NCBI GenBank assembly: GCA_031283105.1
Contig: JAITCL010000048.1
Coordinates: 1 to 37,188, forward strand
Direction of reading: 5' to 3'
Source of the DNA: Treponema sp.
GTDB taxonomy: Bacteria; Spirochaetota; Spirochaetia; Treponematales; Breznakiellaceae
DNA length: 37,188 nt
A program made the position numbers and the translations under genes. The stretch's first letter is position 1, and every line of letters starts with the position of its first letter. The notes beneath the pieces were generated by a model, which was not told where the DNA came from, ran no database searches, and worked only from the letters and a program-made list of their open reading frames with translations. Shown piece by piece: positions 13,444 through 30,543 of the stretch.

Positions 13444-14514
13444 TTACAACGCCGGCGCCGTCTGTGACGCATTAAACGCAATCTTGTATGTGCCGCTGTT
13501 GGAATTCTCTACCCTTATATAGTACTCTTGCCCTACAGTTACACCCAGGGAGGTGTATTTATTACTGTCATGTAAAGATGTCGAGTATACGATGTTGTTT
13601 GGGAGATACATCTGCACATACAGACTAGTCAACGTGCCGAAACTCGCGTGTATATACTGCGTGCTTGCGGTTGCGGTAAACATGAACCACTGTACGCCAT
13701 TTTGAGGAAGATTACCGTCTGCCCAAGTGTCCACAGTAAGCGGTGTGAATATAATGTCGTCGTCCCAGCCCCCTGCCGCGCCGGACTTGGTTGAATCAAG
13801 CGCAACCCCTGGCCCCGCAGTTTTTTCCCTGTATTTACGAATTCCTGCATACACCGCAGTAGAACCGTCGCTGTTTTGTGCGTCACTCCCCGTGATAGTT
13901 CCGCCCGTCTTGGTGAAGATTCCGCCGGACACATACACCCCGACTCCTGTATTGTTGGAGATAGTCCCGCCACTCATGGTGAAGGTTCCGCCGGACACAG
14001 ACACCCCGTAGCCGTTGGAGATAGTCCCGCCGCTCATGGTAAAGGTTCCGCCGGACACATACACTTCTCCGTATTCACCGGTAATTATCGCGCCGGTTCC
14101 CATCTCCAGTACGCCGCCTGATTCTACCCGTACCTCGCCGTACAGGGCAATCTTGTCCAATATCAGGGTAACGCCGTTTCCAATTTCAAAGAGCAGGTAG
14201 TCGTCGAACAGAAGACTGATAGCCCAGTCTCCGGTAAGCCGTATGGTGATATTGCCCTTTCCGGTTGAGGTGGGGTAGTAGAGGTAATTGTCCCCGGCAA
14301 GCGTCTCGTTCTTGTCAATGGTAATGAGATAGGAGTGGTCGCTCCGCGCGTAGTTTTTCAACCATGCCAGCTTTGCGGCGAGGTCTGCGCCAGGAACAGC
14401 GGATTCGTTACCGGACTGGCCGCCGCTGTTTGTGATATTGTCGCAACCCGCGAGAAGTATGGCTGCAGCAGCGATAAACGCCGCCATCACTCTAAAAAAA
14501 CCGTTCTTTTTCAT
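13444..14514 (-). CDS. Lipoprotein with glycine-rich beta-helix-like repeats
   Basis: 356 residues from the ATG at 14514, chosen for GGAGGG upstream and the signal peptide with lipobox ILLAGC. After a roughly 140-residue region comes a run of SGGTFTMSGGTISN units with a 20-residue period, of the kind that forms a right-handed beta-helix. The C-terminal 100 residues, including VQWFMFTATASTQYIHASF and GQEYYIRVENSNSGTYKI, resemble a PPC-type beta-sandwich. It is expected on the outer surface or in the periplasm, perhaps in binding or adhesion; no enzyme motif was found. It is divergent from a small XRE regulator, the same layout as the lipoprotein at 24098-25003. Confidence 0.8.
   Translation of the reverse strand: MKKNGFFRVMAAFIAAAAILLAGCDNITNSGGQSGNESAVPGADLAAKLAWLKNYARSDHSYLITIDKNETLAGDNYLYYPTSTGKGNITIRLTGDWAISLLFDDYLLFEIGNGVTLILDKIALYGEVRVESGGVLEMGTGAIITGEYGEVYVSGGTFTMSGGTISNGYGVSVSGGTFTMSGGTISNNTGVGVYVSGGIFTKTGGTITGSDAQNSDGSTAVYAGIRKYREKTAGPGVALDSTKSGAAGGWDDDIIFTPLTVDTWADGNLPQNGVQWFMFTATASTQYIHASFGTLTSLYVQMYLPNNIVYSTSLHDSNKYTSLGVTVGQEYYIRVENSNSGTYKIAFNASQTAPAL
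13954..14060 (-). repeat. 60-bp tandem repeat inside the lipoprotein gene
   Basis: Two nearly identical 47-base blocks at 13954-14000 and 14014-14060, repeating with a 60-base period, plus a weaker third copy near 13908-13932. Because the period is a multiple of three, copy-number change would keep the frame and add or remove 20-residue rungs of the repeat domain. Confidence 0.7.
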
Positions 14515-25624: not shown

Positions 25625-25728
25625 AATTCCTCAGGTAAAGTTCAGTATCACGGTAAATGCCGCCATCCTGCCGTATTGAACCAAACGCCCATGCTTGGTA
25701 CAATGAACAAAACAGCCAAAGAGGTACT

Positions 25729-28700
25729 ATGCAGTCACTGGGAATAAATATCGGCTCAACCAGCCTGAAAATGGCTCTTTTTGAATATGACGGCAGGGCT
25801 GACGGCGCGTCTGGCGGCGGCGTACCTAATGGTACGGCGGTATGGAGCGCGTCGGTTCCCCACGAGGGGGATTTTGCCGCGGCGGTGCGCAAGCTGCTGG
25901 CCGCAGGGAACATTCCCGCGGGGATTCCCGCCCTGGTTACCGGCAATGAAGGCCGCTTTATGTTTGACGTGTCCGGCACGCTGGAGCCGCTGTGCGTGGA
26001 GGCCGCCCTGCGCAGTCTGGGCATAAAAGCCGACGCGGTGGTCAGCATGGGCGGTGAAGACCTTATCGTCTATTCGCTGGATTCAAATGGCAAAATTATC
26101 AATAATTTTTCCGGTAACAAATGCGCCAGCGGCACGGGCGAATTCCTGAAACAGCAGCTTGCCCGCATGGACATGACTCTCGATGACATCGACAAGGTGC
26201 CTGACACCGCCCGCGTTTACGCCCTGTCCACCCGCTGTTCGGTGTTTATGAAAAGCGACTGCACCCATCGGCTGAACAAGCGGGAAGCGACAAAAGATGA
26301 TATTGTGCTGTCTTTGTCGGACGTGATGGCCGTAAAAGTGATTGACTTTTTGAAACGCGCCAAAGTGACCGAGGGGAGGGTAGCGCTGACTGGCGGGATT
26401 ACCCTGAACCGGCACATTATCCGCTTTATCCGCGAGAAGGCCCCGCAGATTGAATTTATCATTCCCGAAACCGCGCCGGTGTTTGAGGCTCTGGGCGCGG
26501 CGGTTTTGGCGCCCCAATCGGGAAGCCGTTTGCCCGCGGCGGATAAACTGCTCAAACCCAACGAGATTCGTTTTGGCACTTTGGGGGCGCTGCGGGACTG
26601 GAAAAATAAAGTACGATTTTTTGAAAAGCCGGACGGTAAAGTCCGCGCCGACCGCCGTTATATTCTCGGCGTTGACGGCGGTTCCACCACCACCAAAGCC
26701 TGTCTGGTGGACATGGAAACGTATGAAATTACCGCGAGCCATTACGGACGCACCCACGGCGATCCGGTAAAGGCCCTTAAAGAGTGTCTGGCTATCATTC
26801 AGGAAAAAGTCATCGCCGATACCGGCGGCAAAAAAATCGACATACGGCTGGTGTCCACGACCGGTTCCAGCCGGGAGATTCTTGGCGTATTTTTGGAAAC
26901 GCCGGGCGTGTACAATGAGATTATCGCCCATTCGGTAGGGACGACTTATTTTGACAAAGAAGTTGAAACGATTTTTGAAATCGGCGGCCAGGACGCGAAG
27001 TATGTGCTGTTGAAAAACGGCGTGCCGATTGATTACGCGATGAACGAAGCCTGTTCCGCGGGAACCGGTTCCTTTCTGGAGGAATCCGCATCCGGCGACC
27101 TTTCGATACACAGCGCCCATGACATCGGCCCCATTGCGCTGGAAGCGGGCGCGCCCTGCAAATTCGGCGAACATTGTTCCGCGTTTATCAACAGCGATAT
27201 TCGCAAGGCGGTACAGCAGGGGGCGGGTCGGGAAAATATCACCGCGGGGATTGTCTGTTCCATTGTGGCGAATTACCTGAACCGCGTGGTGGGTAACCGC
27301 ACCATCGGCGGGAAAATATTTTTGCAGGGCGGCGTTGCCAAAAATCCGGCGGTTCCCCTTGCCTTTGCCATGCTCCTCAACAAGGAAATTCTCGTTCCCC
27401 CTTCGCCTGAACTGACGGGCTGTTTCGGCGTGGCGTTATTGGCGCAGCGCAAACACACGGACGGCCTGCTTGAAGAACAGAGCGTTATTATCGACGATAT
27501 TATTAACCGCGAGATTGGCTACGAGCGGGTATTCACCTGTAACGCCTGCGAAAACCGCTGCCCGATTCAGGTGTTAAACGTCAACGAACACAAGTATATG
27601 TTCGGCGGGCGCTGCAATAAATACACCAATATGCGCAAACACGTCAAGGATGTGCCGGTGTTTGATTATGTCGAGAAACGGCAAAAGATGTTATTTGAGG
27701 AATTTGCCGCTCCGGTGGGGAGTGGGGAGTGGGGAGTAGGGAGTAGGGAACTGGGAATAGAGAATGGGGGGCAATATGATAAAGACCTTCAAGGATCTGA
27801 TAGTTTGGCAGGAAGCAATGAATTTGGTCGAGATGATTTACCTGCAAACGAAAACCTTTCCGAAAGAAGAAATGTACGGCTTGACCAGCCAGATCAGGCG
27901 GGCAGCCGTATCAATCCCGACCAATATAGCGGAGGGCAACGGACGGAGAAGCCGGAAGGAATATCTGAGGTTTCTGTCAATAGCAAACGGCTCAATAAAG
28001 GAACTGGAAACTCATCTACTGATAGTGGAGCGACTCAACTTTTTGCCGAAAGAAATATCGGAACAAATGCAAACACAACTACAATCGGTAGGCCGTCTAC
28101 TGACTGCCTTGAGAAAATCCCTCAGGAAGGGAATAGGGATTACGGATTAAAAACCTCACTCCCTACCCCTCAACATCCAAATCACGGTTCCCACTCCCCA
28201 CTCCCCACTCCCTACTCCCCAAAATACAAACGTTCTTTCACTGTTGGCATCCCCCGCGCGTTTTCCGTGCATACGCTGTATCCGCTGTACTCGTGGTTTT
28301 TTCACGAACTGGGGATTAAGACGTTTCTTTCGACTGAGGTGGCCCACGCCGGCGTTGCCCGCGCGGAATCGACGTACTGTTTTCCGGCGGAGATTGCCCA
28401 CGGCGCGGTGCAGGACTGTCTGGACAAGGGGGCCGATTATGTGCTGCTGCCCCATTTTCGGGATATGCCGAGTTACGAGGAAAGTGTGCACGCGAACTTT
28501 TGTCCCATAACGCAGAGTTTGCCGTATTATATCGAAAAGGCGTTTCCCGATATTGACAAGAAACGCTGGCTGCCGCTGGTGGTGAGTTTTAAATTCGGCG
28601 ACGGCAAGGCACTGGAACTTTTTTGCGAGATGACGCGGCGGCTGGGTATTGGCGAGGCGGAGACAGAAACCGCTTTCAAAACGGCAATGGCAAAACAGCA

Positions 28701-30543
28701 GGCTTATTTTGACGCGGTGCATAAGATGGGCGAACAGGCGCTGGAAGATGCCCGCAAATCCGACCGTCCGGTTATCGCCACTCTGGGACGGCCCTACAAT
28801 GCCTTTACCCCTGAGGCGAACATGGGTATTCCCCGCAAGTTTACCACGCGGGGCTATTCAATCGTTCCCTTTGATATTTTGCCGTTCCACGATGAGGAAA
28901 TTTTTCCCAATATGTACTGGTACTACGGCCAGCAGGACGTAAAGGCGGCGAACCTCCTCAAAAAAGAAGACAATATTTATCTTACTTTTATTAGCAATTT
29001 TTCCTGCGCGCCGGATTCGTTTATTCTGCATTACATCAAATGGGTGATGGGGCAGAAGCCCTTCCTCGTGCTGGAACTGGATTCCCATTCAGCCGATGCG
29101 GGGGTGGATACGCGGGTTGAAGCGTTTCTTGACATTATTGACGGTTACCGCGCGAAGAAAAACGAACTGGAGGCGGAGCGTTACGATAACGGCTGGCGTT
29201 TTATCAGCGAGAAGCGGGAGAGCGGCGGATTTGATCTGCGGATAGACAGTGTAAAAACCGGCGAGAAGGTTCCCATTGCGGGTAACAAGCGGGTGAAAGT
29301 TTTGCTCTCCAATATGGGGGCGATTTCCGCTGAATACATGGGCGCGGCGGTGCGCAGTCTGGATATCAGCGCGGAGGTTCTGCCGGTGGCGACTGCCAAA
29401 ACGATTCAAATTGCCCGTTCCCATGCGTCGGGAAAGGAGTGCGTTCCCAGCCATCTGGTGTTGGGCGGCGCGCTGGAATTCTTTTTCAGCGACAAGTACC
29501 GCAAGGATGAATTGTACCTGCTCTTTGTGCCGATTACGACCGGCCCCTGCCGCACCGGCCAGTATTATGTGTTTTATGAAAATCTGTTCCGCGACTTGCA
29601 GCTTGAAAACGTGGTGGTCTTTATATTATCAGCGGACAATTCCTACAATGAACTGGGCCCCAGTTTTGCTAAAGAGATGTGGAGGGGACTGGTGCTGTCC
29701 GATTATCTCAAGGACATTCAGTGCAGTCTGAAAGCCTGCGCCGCCGATCCGGTAAAGGCACAGGCGGATTTTGAACATTCGTGGCGCAGGGTCATGTACG
29801 CGGTTGAGCATAACCCCAAAAAATTATGGAAGGAACTCAGACACGTTGCAAAAGATGTTAAAAAAATTCCCTTAAAGCGCACGGTGGCCGACTGCCCGCG
29901 GGTGCTGATTGTCGGCGAGATTTACGTGCGCCGCGATGATTTTGCCGTAGGCGAATTAACGGACTTGATGAGCGAGCGGGGCATTGTGGTTAAGGTGGCG
30001 GGTATTTCCGAATGGATTCATTATCTTGATTTTGTGCGGGAATACGCCCTTAACAAATTAATTAAATTGCGCAAGCCCGGTACGCGGTTGTTTTCCCCGC
30101 CCTGGAAAGACCTTAAAAAACTGAAAATTGAAGAATGGTGGAAACACCATATCGAGAAAAAAGTCCTTTCTATTTTGCTGCCCACCGGCCTTATCCCCGA
30201 AACACCCCACGATATGCACGACATTATGGAGTACACTCAGGAACATTTTGTGAATCTGGAACTGAATTCGGAGATTGCCGTGTCTTCCGGTTCGGCGGCG
30301 GCGGCAATGGACGCGGGTTATTCCGGCATCGTGAACATTAGCCCCTTTGCCTGCCTTATCGGGCGGGTTATTGAGGGCCTGTTTACCCCCTGGGCGCGGG
30401 AGCGCAACTACCCGATTCTGTCGGTGGAAGTTGACGGCAATTTACTGCCGCCGAATATTGTTAATAAACTTAACATTTTTATGGTCAACGTACTGCGGTT
30501 TAAGGGTGGAAACGACCTTTCTACATTGGTGGATAAAAGGTGA
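25729..30543 (+). CDS. 2-hydroxyacyl-CoA dehydratase activase-type multidomain protein, carrying an in-frame IVS-like insert
   Basis: 1604 residues from the ATG at 25729, chosen for AGAGG upstream. Two BadF/HgdC-type ASKHA ATPase modules come first: about 1-270, with GINIGSTSLK and NKCASGTGEF, and about 310-580, with GVDGGSTTTKA, GGQDAKY and NEACSAGTGSF (Cys442). A Cys cluster follows (CNACENRC at 604-611, GGRC ending at 629). Residues about 664-831 are a low-complexity insert coded by the heptad-bounded element at 27717-28220. A DUF2229/dehydratase-like region then begins at FTVGIPRAFSVHTLYPLYS, and the C-terminal half has GKECVPSHLVLGGALEF and TGPCRTGQY. Such proteins use Fe-S-coupled, ATP-driven electron transfer to activate radical dehydratases; this one's substrate is unknown. 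Removing the insert leaves about 1436 residues, which fits an uninterrupted homologue. Confidence 0.85.
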   Translation: MQSLGINIGSTSLKMALFEYDGRADGASGGGVPNGTAVWSASVPHEGDFAAAVRKLLAAGNIPAGIPALVTGNEGRFMFDVSGTLEPLCVEAALRSLGIKADAVVSMGGEDLIVYSLDSNGKIINNFSGNKCASGTGEFLKQQLARMDMTLDDIDKVPDTARVYALSTRCSVFMKSDCTHRLNKREATKDDIVLSLSDVMAVKVIDFLKRAKVTEGRVALTGGITLNRHIIRFIREKAPQIEFIIPETAPVFEALGAAVLAPQSGSRLPAADKLLKPNEIRFGTLGALRDWKNKVRFFEKPDGKVRADRRYILGVDGGSTTTKACLVDMETYEITASHYGRTHGDPVKALKECLAIIQEKVIADTGGKKIDIRLVSTTGSSREILGVFLETPGVYNEIIAHSVGTTYFDKEVETIFEIGGQDAKYVLLKNGVPIDYAMNEACSAGTGSFLEESASGDLSIHSAHDIGPIALEAGAPCKFGEHCSAFINSDIRKAVQQGAGRENITAGIVCSIVANYLNRVVGNRTIGGKIFLQGGVAKNPAVPLAFAMLLNKEILVPPSPELTGCFGVALLAQRKHTDGLLEEQSVIIDDIINREIGYERVFTCNACENRCPIQVLNVNEHKYMFGGRCNKYTNMRKHVKDVPVFDYVEKRQKMLFEEFAAPVGSGEWGVGSRELGIENGGQYDKDLQGSDSLAGSNEFGRDDLPANENLSERRNVRLDQPDQAGSRINPDQYSGGQRTEKPEGISEVSVNSKRLNKGTGNSSTDSGATQLFAERNIGTNANTTTIGRPSTDCLEKIPQEGNRDYGLKTSLPTPQHPNHGSHSPLPTPYSPKYKRSFTVGIPRAFSVHTLYPLYSWFFHELGIKTFLSTEVAHAGVARAESTYCFPAEIAHGAVQDCLDKGADYVLLPHFRDMPSYEESVHANFCPITQSLPYYIEKAFPDIDKKRWLPLVVSFKFGDGKALELFCEMTRRLGIGEAETETAFKTAMAKQQAYFDAVHKMGEQALEDARKSDRPVIATLGRPYNAFTPEANMGIPRKFTTRGYSIVPFDILPFHDEEIFPNMYWYYGQQDVKAANLLKKEDNIYLTFISNFSCAPDSFILHYIKWVMGQKPFLVLELDSHSADAGVDTRVEAFLDIIDGYRAKKNELEAERYDNGWRFISEKRESGGFDLRIDSVKTGEKVPIAGNKRVKVLLSNMGAISAEYMGAAVRSLDISAEVLPVATAKTIQIARSHASGKECVPSHLVLGGALEFFFSDKYRKDELYLLFVPITTGPCRTGQYYVFYENLFRDLQLENVVVFILSADNSYNELGPSFAKEMWRGLVLSDYLKDIQCSLKACAADPVKAQADFEHSWRRVMYAVEHNPKKLWKELRHVAKDVKKIPLKRTVADCPRVLIVGEIYVRRDDFAVGELTDLMSERGIVVKVAGISEWIHYLDFVREYALNKLIKLRKPGTRLFSPPWKDLKKLKIEEWWKHHIEKKVLSILLPTGLIPETPHDMHDIMEYTQEHFVNLELNSEIAVSSGSAAAAMDAGYSGIVNISPFACLIGRVIEGLFTPWARERNYPILSVEVDGNLLPPNIVNKLNIFMVNVLRFKGGNDLSTLVDKR
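27717..27751 (+). repeat. Left heptad arm of the insert
   Basis: Five seven-base units: GGGGAGT three times, AGGGAGT and AGGGAAC. They pair with the right arm at 28187-28220 when transcribed. In the host frame they read as GSGEWGVGSRELG, unlike the flanking conserved protein. Confidence 0.75.
27776..28150 (+). CDS. S23 / 23S-rRNA-intervening-sequence four-helix-bundle protein (nested gene)
   Basis: 124 residues from the ATG at 27776, which has GGGGGG four bases upstream; an in-frame ATG at 27764 lacks a site. The whole family signature is present: FKDLIVWQEAMNLVEMIY, FPKEEMYGLTSQIRRAAVSI, PTNIAEGNGRRSRKEYLRFL and ANGSIKELETHL, with four predicted helices and a basic surface. This is the family known as S23 or 23S_rRNA_IVP, also related in fold to the Avd accessory protein of diversity-generating retroelements. 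It is wholly inside the dehydratase-type gene in another frame, between heptad inverted repeats. Its role is uncertain: RNA or nucleic-acid binding, or a passenger helping the element. Both frames are open here, but only this frame has family conservation. Confidence 0.88.
   Translation: MIKTFKDLIVWQEAMNLVEMIYLQTKTFPKEEMYGLTSQIRRAAVSIPTNIAEGNGRRSRKEYLRFLSIANGSIKELETHLLIVERLNFLPKEISEQMQTQLQSVGRLLTALRKSLRKGIGITD
28187..28220 (+). repeat. Right heptad arm of the insert
   Basis: GTTCCC followed by four ACTCCCY units, the reverse complement of the left arm with one indel. The conserved dehydratase sequence resumes immediately after, at KYKRSFTVGIPRAF. Confidence 0.75.

Follow-up and report, generated by a model that had tools for sequence, protein, structure and literature searches.

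An element with an S23 gene between inverted heptad arrays lies in frame within an activase gene of a Treponema genome, and related elements occupy other bacterial protein genes

The stretch of DNA analysed here, called the window, is a 37,188-nt contig (C18, JAITCL010000048.1) of a Treponema sp. genome (GCA_031283105.1), probably that of a termite-gut spirochaete. The assembly comprises 2.79 Mb in 167 contigs and is 94.6% complete, with 7.1% estimated contamination. An acyl-CoA dehydratase activase gene of the window contains a segment with the following features.

25657..30543, + strand: host gene, acyl-CoA dehydratase activase (TIGR00241; PF01869 (BcrAD_BadFG) twice; PF09989 (DUF2229)), open through the insert
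27717..28220, + strand: whole inserted element, 504 nt or 168 codons, with no counterpart in 13 relatives read
27717..27757, + strand: left arm, a G-rich heptad array (GGGGAGT / GGGAGTA)
27766..27771, + strand: candidate weak ribosome-binding site, a run of G residues 4 nt upstream of the S23 start codon (by eye)
27776..28150, + strand: S23 (PF05635/TIGR02436) gene of 124 aa, in the +1 frame of the host; an upstream ATG is possible at 27764
28154..28181, - strand: degenerate C-rich heptad stretch in the interval between S23 and the right arm (repeat family D1, 82%)
28188..28220, - strand: right arm, a C-rich heptad array complementary to the left arm and paired in the RNA fold

The two arrays map to 27717–27757 and 28188–28220, as proposed in the sequence-only reading of this DNA, which had described a 504-nt segment bounded by inverted heptad arms. 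The best ungapped arms (27716–27747 and 28190–28221) are 32 nt long and 91% complementary, and are paired in the predicted RNA fold of 27700–28240, which has a z-score of −7.7 and was equalled in stability by none of 100 shuffled sequences. The terminal inverted repeats form a stem, as do those of the intervening sequences (IVSs) of 23S rRNA. The S23 ORF, read earlier as complete and in the +1 frame of the host, is indeed intact and matches PF05635 (E 2e-40) and TIGR02436 (E 8e-39) with 137.7 and 132.2 bits, against curated cut-offs of 33.8 and 24; the nearest solved structure is 2gsc (E 1.4e-30). S23 is the sole matched protein within 27717–28220, and no transposase was found there. An Rfam search of the window gave no match; the element lies in a protein gene, and so outside any 23S rRNA gene. 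Neither a target duplication nor a fresh copy was seen, and the linker is too variable between species to define an empty target. The S23 gene is single-copy in this genome, while heptad-armed places are many. The exact 14-mer GGGGAGTGGGGAGT occurs in 29 copies, compared to none for its reversed control, and GGGGAGT arrays are spread genome-wide rather than being peculiar to the S23 element.

The host ORF encodes 1628 residues with no stop anywhere across the insert, in agreement with the earlier description of an open host frame, and S23 is in +1 relative to it. The insert corresponds to residues 687–855, between the BcrAD_BadFG (ASKHA) and DUF2229 regions. Since the matches of most near-full orthologues begin at residues 16–25, the true start is probably the ATG at 25729 rather than 25657. 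Full-length activase orthologue ORFs of the genus are mostly 1436–1498 aa long. The distance between conserved anchors flanking the insert is 624 nt in the window versus 126–177 nt in 13 distinct relatives (plus-strand loci only), and all of these distances are divisible by three. The 13 relatives have a short, variable linker alone at this site, and the empty site upholds the proposal that an S23-type armed element entered a protein gene in frame between the ASKHA and DUF2229 regions. The expected orthologue gap at residues 664–831 is found at the same place, with a numbering that fits the later start at 25729, but it is not an exact gap of 504 nt, because the linker is hypervariable. Among the orthologues read, no conserved insert devoid of heptads and S23, the finding named beforehand as contrary evidence, was encountered. 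The nearest relative, G016 (95–98% identical around the insert), has a lone CCCCAGT/CCCCGAT-type heptad array at the insert point, and no S23 was found in a search of its genome (81% complete). At the same hypervariable spot, the activase linker of G011 (L050/L079) carries an odd peptide of another kind, LCASVSSVPPCE (by eye). The spot looks as if it collects several repeat families.

A similarity search of 195 genomes of the family gave S23 matches in 18, many of them weak, including nine at 46% identity or more and one partial copy. Seven copies are in genes. The window genome and two genomes of two other genera (G208 and G180) have S23 at one common point of the same activase gene; three genomes of the same genus as the window (G020, G034 and G060) have it inside leuS, in frame, at one common point of the editing domain; and G210 has it inside a type ISP restriction enzyme gene. 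The host frame is open in all seven, none of which was picked by openness, and S23 is always in +1. Two copies in G197 and one in G026 look intergenic by eye. The contig of the G060 leuS ends just past the insert; this copy is the same as L081 (Treponema sp. MAG, isolate Co191P3bin12), with identical DNA over 348 nt, and L081 is the closest named S23 relative in the best 80 of at least 561. In 27 other genus genomes read at the leuS point, the element is absent; where the carriers have it, most of the 27 have a loop of ~20 residues instead. The differing loop of G024 may be an element scar (by eye). No second leuS-level match was found in G020 (99% complete) or G034 (92%). By eye, the G034 leuS ORF (L061/L071) apparently holds two more small heptad-encoded inserts besides the S23 element.

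The heptads of the arms differ between these copies: GGGGAGT in the window, GGGGACT in G034, GGGATCA/GGGAATA in G020, AGTGAAGTAGTT in G208 and GGGACTT in G180. The arms resemble the genome's own dispersed heptads in the window genome, G034 and G020, the three compared in this respect; one of the dispersed-heptad patterns reads the same backwards, which makes its reversed control uninformative. The closest partner of the window S23 in the gene tree is a leuS copy from the same genus (support 85/78). The G208 activase copy groups with the window and leuS copies and the G180 copy stands apart, with weak support.

S23 genes are common in bacterial genomes, with at least 561 relatives confirmed in a scan of 84,980 species genomes. 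The best 80 of these were surveyed, 77 of which had enough flank for the arm test. An inverted-arm score of 14 or more was found at 50 of the 77 loci (27 scored lower), compared to none of 154 places taken at random from these loci and 2 of 227 cross-locus pairs. Period-7 arrays are present in both flanks at 31 of 77 loci versus 0 of 154 random places; 17 of 77 have neither arms nor period-7 or period-8 arrays in both flanks. The heptad sequence varies from genome to genome.

At 14 of the 80 loci, a second-frame ORF crosses S23 with sequence on both sides, always at the same offset; four of these (L081, L087, L100 and L141) extend only a little way on one side or meet the end of a contig. In-gene S23 elements total 23, all in +1. 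The host frame is open through S23 in 23/23 and continues beyond both arms, or to the contig end, in 22/23, the sole exception being L147 (Entotheonella), in which it is broken in the right arm. Because 16 of the 23 were found through an open frame or similarity to such hosts, frame-broken insertions may be missed. Fourteen of the 23 have clear arms (score of at least 14); the other nine score 7 (G020), 9 (L108 and L277), 10 (four elements) and 12 (two elements).

The hosts, apart from those of the seven family copies, are BREX pglX (L082, L084, L100 and L277 by PADLOC; L087 by similarity), type III methylases (L103 and L153 by PADLOC; L108, L144 and L147 by N6_N4_Mtase and similarity to L103; L141 by similarity to L153), type IIG enzymes (L126 by PADLOC; L110, with Pfam methylase domains and DUF559, IIG-like by our own reading), a hybrid histidine kinase (L083) and a DNA polymerase III alpha-family gene (L280). 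A single BREX pglX ORF (L082:397-4962) contains two intact S23 genes, both in +1. At L115 (4001-7937), a pglX without either in-gene insertion of L082 is directly preceded by an S23 gene. The L110 element is part of a contig of 2.19 Mb, which, together with same-site elements in other assemblies and arms that match the window genome's own heptads, makes an assembly or binning artefact scarcely credible, notwithstanding the 167 contigs and estimated contamination of the window genome. Heptad-armed S23 elements are widespread and in frame in several kinds of protein gene; the window element is therefore not necessarily a single import from 23S rRNA, and the 23S rRNA IVS would be one habitat of a broader element class.

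At the 66 named loci not called in-gene, the upstream neighbour is on the same strand as S23 in 47, on the opposite strand in 2 and unclear in 17, and the downstream neighbour in 36, 4 and 26, respectively, as judged from longest stop-free stretches, not gene calls. At 30 of 42 clear-armed loci, the incoming sense ORF has its stop at −16 to +7 nt relative to the start of the arm (no control set). Eight upstream neighbours tested are diverse and mostly metabolic, and one downstream neighbour is HsdR. In L119 (Flavobacteriaceae MAG) and L146 (Dysgonomonas), the S23 gene directly follows an sdhA/frdA-type gene, which suggests a recurrent operon site. Antisense hosts found no support: among the 80 named loci, an antisense ORF is open across S23 in five (L100, L116, L120, L126 and L158), of which L100 and L126 have a sense host and the antisense ORFs of the other three match no Pfam family. 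The S23 gene of L116 lies between sense aminotransferase and carbamoyltransferase genes.

Several candidate carriers or movers of S23 were considered and rejected. S23 was matched in none of 50,697 phage records and at 30 loci in 2.9 million IMG/VR contigs; at two of these 30 loci, L277 and L280, a sense ORF of more than 250 aa crosses S23. S23 occurs in 34 plasmid records, mostly cyanobacterial. An apparent two-copy recent transposition in Calothrix plasmids looks like a duplicated plasmid region, as the neighbouring genes are shared too. A reverse transcriptase acting in trans is not favored: PF00078 is found in 11 of 39 genus genomes with no association with S23, being present in the carriers G000 (the window genome) and G020 and absent from G034, G060 and G026. 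The single match of the window genome is on contig C88, not on the window's contig. An S23-like match of 25% identity beside reverse-transcriptase matches (G027:C225:2241-3787) is probably a true Avd of a diversity-generating retroelement (DGR), and was set aside.

Among the five closest S23 genes, Ka/Ks in the S23 frame is 0.04–0.09 in 9 of 10 pairs, the tenth being saturated; between the window gene and its four closest relatives, it is 0.04–0.07. In the host frame over S23, pN exceeds pS in 10/10 pairs. Therefore, S23 is under purifying selection and maintained as a protein, while the overlapping host-frame peptide drifts in amino acids and is merely kept open. At the 14 in-gene loci among the 80, the +1 frame is open across S23 in 14/14, compared to 1.3 expected from synonymous shuffles; these loci were selected by openness, so that the figure expresses improbability rather than selection. 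At the other 66 loci the +1 frame is open in 10 versus 1.0 expected, including three from Mesorhizobium (L102, L107 and L129), and selection by a host gene does not account for these ten open frames. The third sense frame is never open across the 80 S23 genes. A special hydrophilic design of the +1 frame was rejected: hydrophilicity is a generic trait of that frame, since the corresponding stretches of 57 control ORFs are even more hydrophilic (GRAVY −0.92) than those of 80 S23 genes (−0.72).

Corresponding methylase sites in different phyla hold S23, with flanks that are 33–86% identical depending on the pair and side. This retention, like the purifying selection on S23, would be expected of a domesticated nested gene, no longer mobile and kept for the benefit of its host, for example by regulating its host gene. 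We regard this explanation as rather doubtful. Presence is patchy (the 18 of 195 family genomes mentioned above, and 3 of 39 genus genomes searched for leuS), and between the pglX genes of Fibrobacter and Spirochaetaceae (L084 and L087) S23 is 89% identical, compared to 64% for the downstream part of the host. Because of this mismatch, S23 seems to have moved independently of its host. Together with the local-heptad-like arms and the grouping in the S23 tree, the mismatch fits recombination into heptad sites, and fits homing as well.

The window segment is probably a mobile S23 element, with one gene for an Avd-related four-helix-bundle protein between inverted arrays of a heptad particular to the genome, inserted in sense in the activase linker and translated through by its host. 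The host mRNA would be translated straight across, so that the activase gains a hydrophilic linker of ~168 residues made of the +1 reading of S23 and the translated heptads, and S23 would be translated from its own start nested in the same mRNA, an expression supported by the purifying selection. Open frames, a length divisible by three, the drifting host peptide and the presence of such inserts in an apparently single-copy leuS all argue for straight translation, and read-through is favored over splitting of the message, on sequence grounds, because the host frame is kept open and leuS carries such inserts. Removal at the RNA level, with RNase III cutting the arm stem and the two halves of the message working as separate polypeptides, is improbable. 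The arms do form a long stem, and excision of an S23 IVS from 23S rRNA by RNase III is reported for Coxiella (PMC4990558). A split message, however, needs neither a frame open through S23 in 23/23 elements nor one continuing past the arms in 22/23 despite drift, and a genome that is 99% complete has no second leuS-level match. Ribosome bypassing, in which ribosomes hop over the hairpin and leave the insert untranslated, has precedents in phage T4 gene 60 and the yeast mitochondrial byp elements, and the hairpin here does sit in a coding gene. Bypassing would work with a closed frame and with an insert of any length, whereas the window insert is open and divisible by three in length, and the frame is also open across the other in-gene S23 genes; we consider bypassing highly improbable. 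In the favored reading, translation through the insert, the paired arms would be at most a minor target of RNase III here, since cutting would destroy the host message. The element would ride on host transcription, in sense, within genes or close after a stop codon, and may move or recombine with a preference for certain protein loops and perhaps for existing heptad sites. Translation, RNase III cutting and mobility are what we infer from the DNA, the last from site patterns.

Heptad arrays also occur apart from S23. A degenerate heptad pattern has 60 sites in the window genome, compared to none for the reversed control, and these sites together with those of the exact 14-mer group into 33 places. 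The stretches read contain 36 array places, one of which is the window's, and 14 of the remaining 35 are spanned by an ORF. Among the 14, one (L197 at 5125) has no credible gene, leaving 13 in-frame, in-gene places without S23, all known from the window genome alone. In seven of these places (thrC, priA, recG, neuB, a hybrid histidine kinase gene, queA and purL), the arrays are paired around a short core, and the other six are lone or widely spaced arrays (in ileS, hisA-hisIE, prmC, an ABC transporter gene and, twice, a methyltransferase ORF). A lipoyl-domain gene (L192) that has a paired heptad element extends as far as the end of its contig. The paired elements without S23 are 82–191 nt long, mostly with a short core, ~54 nt in several. 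Armed elements with cores of 54–58 nt, several with TTGTT...AACAAC-type inner ends, were observed at L191, L196, L200, L203, L205 and L207 of the window genome. The short-core armed elements represent a MITE-like family distinct from the S23 element. The remaining array places were judged intergenic by ORF ends; Pfam was run at ten, two of which have no family. The window-genome stretches read contain no clear case of an in-gene array that breaks the frame. S23 as the sole cause of heptad arrays was rejected: arrays are numerous in the genus members G025, G029 and G014, all without an S23 match, and S23 thus need not be what spreads them.

The window element resembles the 23S rRNA IVSs of Leptospira and Coxiella in having an S23 ORF between stem-forming terminal inverted repeats and in size. 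It differs in lying in a protein gene with an open host frame and in its heptad arms. The Coxiella IVS is 428 nt long, and its S23 ORF is reported to be subject to reductive evolution and probably not made (PMC4990558), in contrast to the strong purifying selection on the window S23. Rickettsia palindromic elements (RPEs), which are hairpins, are likewise inserted in frame in conserved protein genes, as are other protein-coding MITEs, and the window element shares this kind of insertion. The host protein Gmk is translated and active with its RPE, a precedent for straight translation through the S23 insert; RPEs are 105–146 bp long with no separate gene described in the accessible part of that account (PMC2229807), whereas the window element has an intact gene of its own, under selection, in another frame. 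The paired heptad elements without S23 (82–191 nt) resemble RPEs more than the S23 element does.

Period-7 G-rich heptad repeats are reported from Xanthomonas (GGGAATC) and Nostoc (GGGGA[C/T]T), two Xanthomonas genomes having 70 and 75 inverted heptad pairs, in many cases close to stop codons; the sections of the report at hand describe them as generally not found with mobile elements and do not mention S23 (PMC4692102). Here, heptads of that kind flank S23 genes, and the S23 arms of L158 (Dyella) are GGGAATA/GGGAATC, the type given there as a genome-wide Xanthomonas repeat (PMC4692102). PF05635 is stated to resemble Avd (PMC10053308). The window S23 is a distant homologue of the Avd of DGRs, scoring 33.1 bits with the NCBIfam Avd model, below its cut-off of 80. 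Unlike DGRs, it has no reverse-transcriptase match on its contig, and none was found in G034, G060 or G026.

To our knowledge, S23 genes have no agreed function, and relatives of Avd bind RNA. A wider reading, which we offer only tentatively, is that S23 elements are phylum-spanning, frame-transparent mobile genes, armed with heptads, placed in sense in host transcripts and shaped to remain open in +1, whose S23 protein acts on the RNA of the arms and so protects or tunes the host message. Frame transparency would then enable them to live, with a homing-like site preference, in working genes such as leuS and the BREX and restriction-modification methylases. In the open-access literature, searched by title and the start of the abstract, with subscription journals mostly outside, we found no report of S23 elements in protein genes or of heptad-armed S23. 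If S23 genes are generally heptad-armed, mobile and in frame in essential and defence genes, the family gains a natural history and a connection with the G-rich heptads known from Xanthomonas and Nostoc. The in-gene elements would also be natural cases of overprinting, with selection acting on one frame as a protein and on the other only for openness. For annotation, host proteins would include well over 100 unusual residues, and the S23 genes nested in their reading frames may be overlooked.

Elsewhere in the window, positions 13894–14064 hold a tandem repeat of 2.8 copies of a 60-nt unit with 83% matches.
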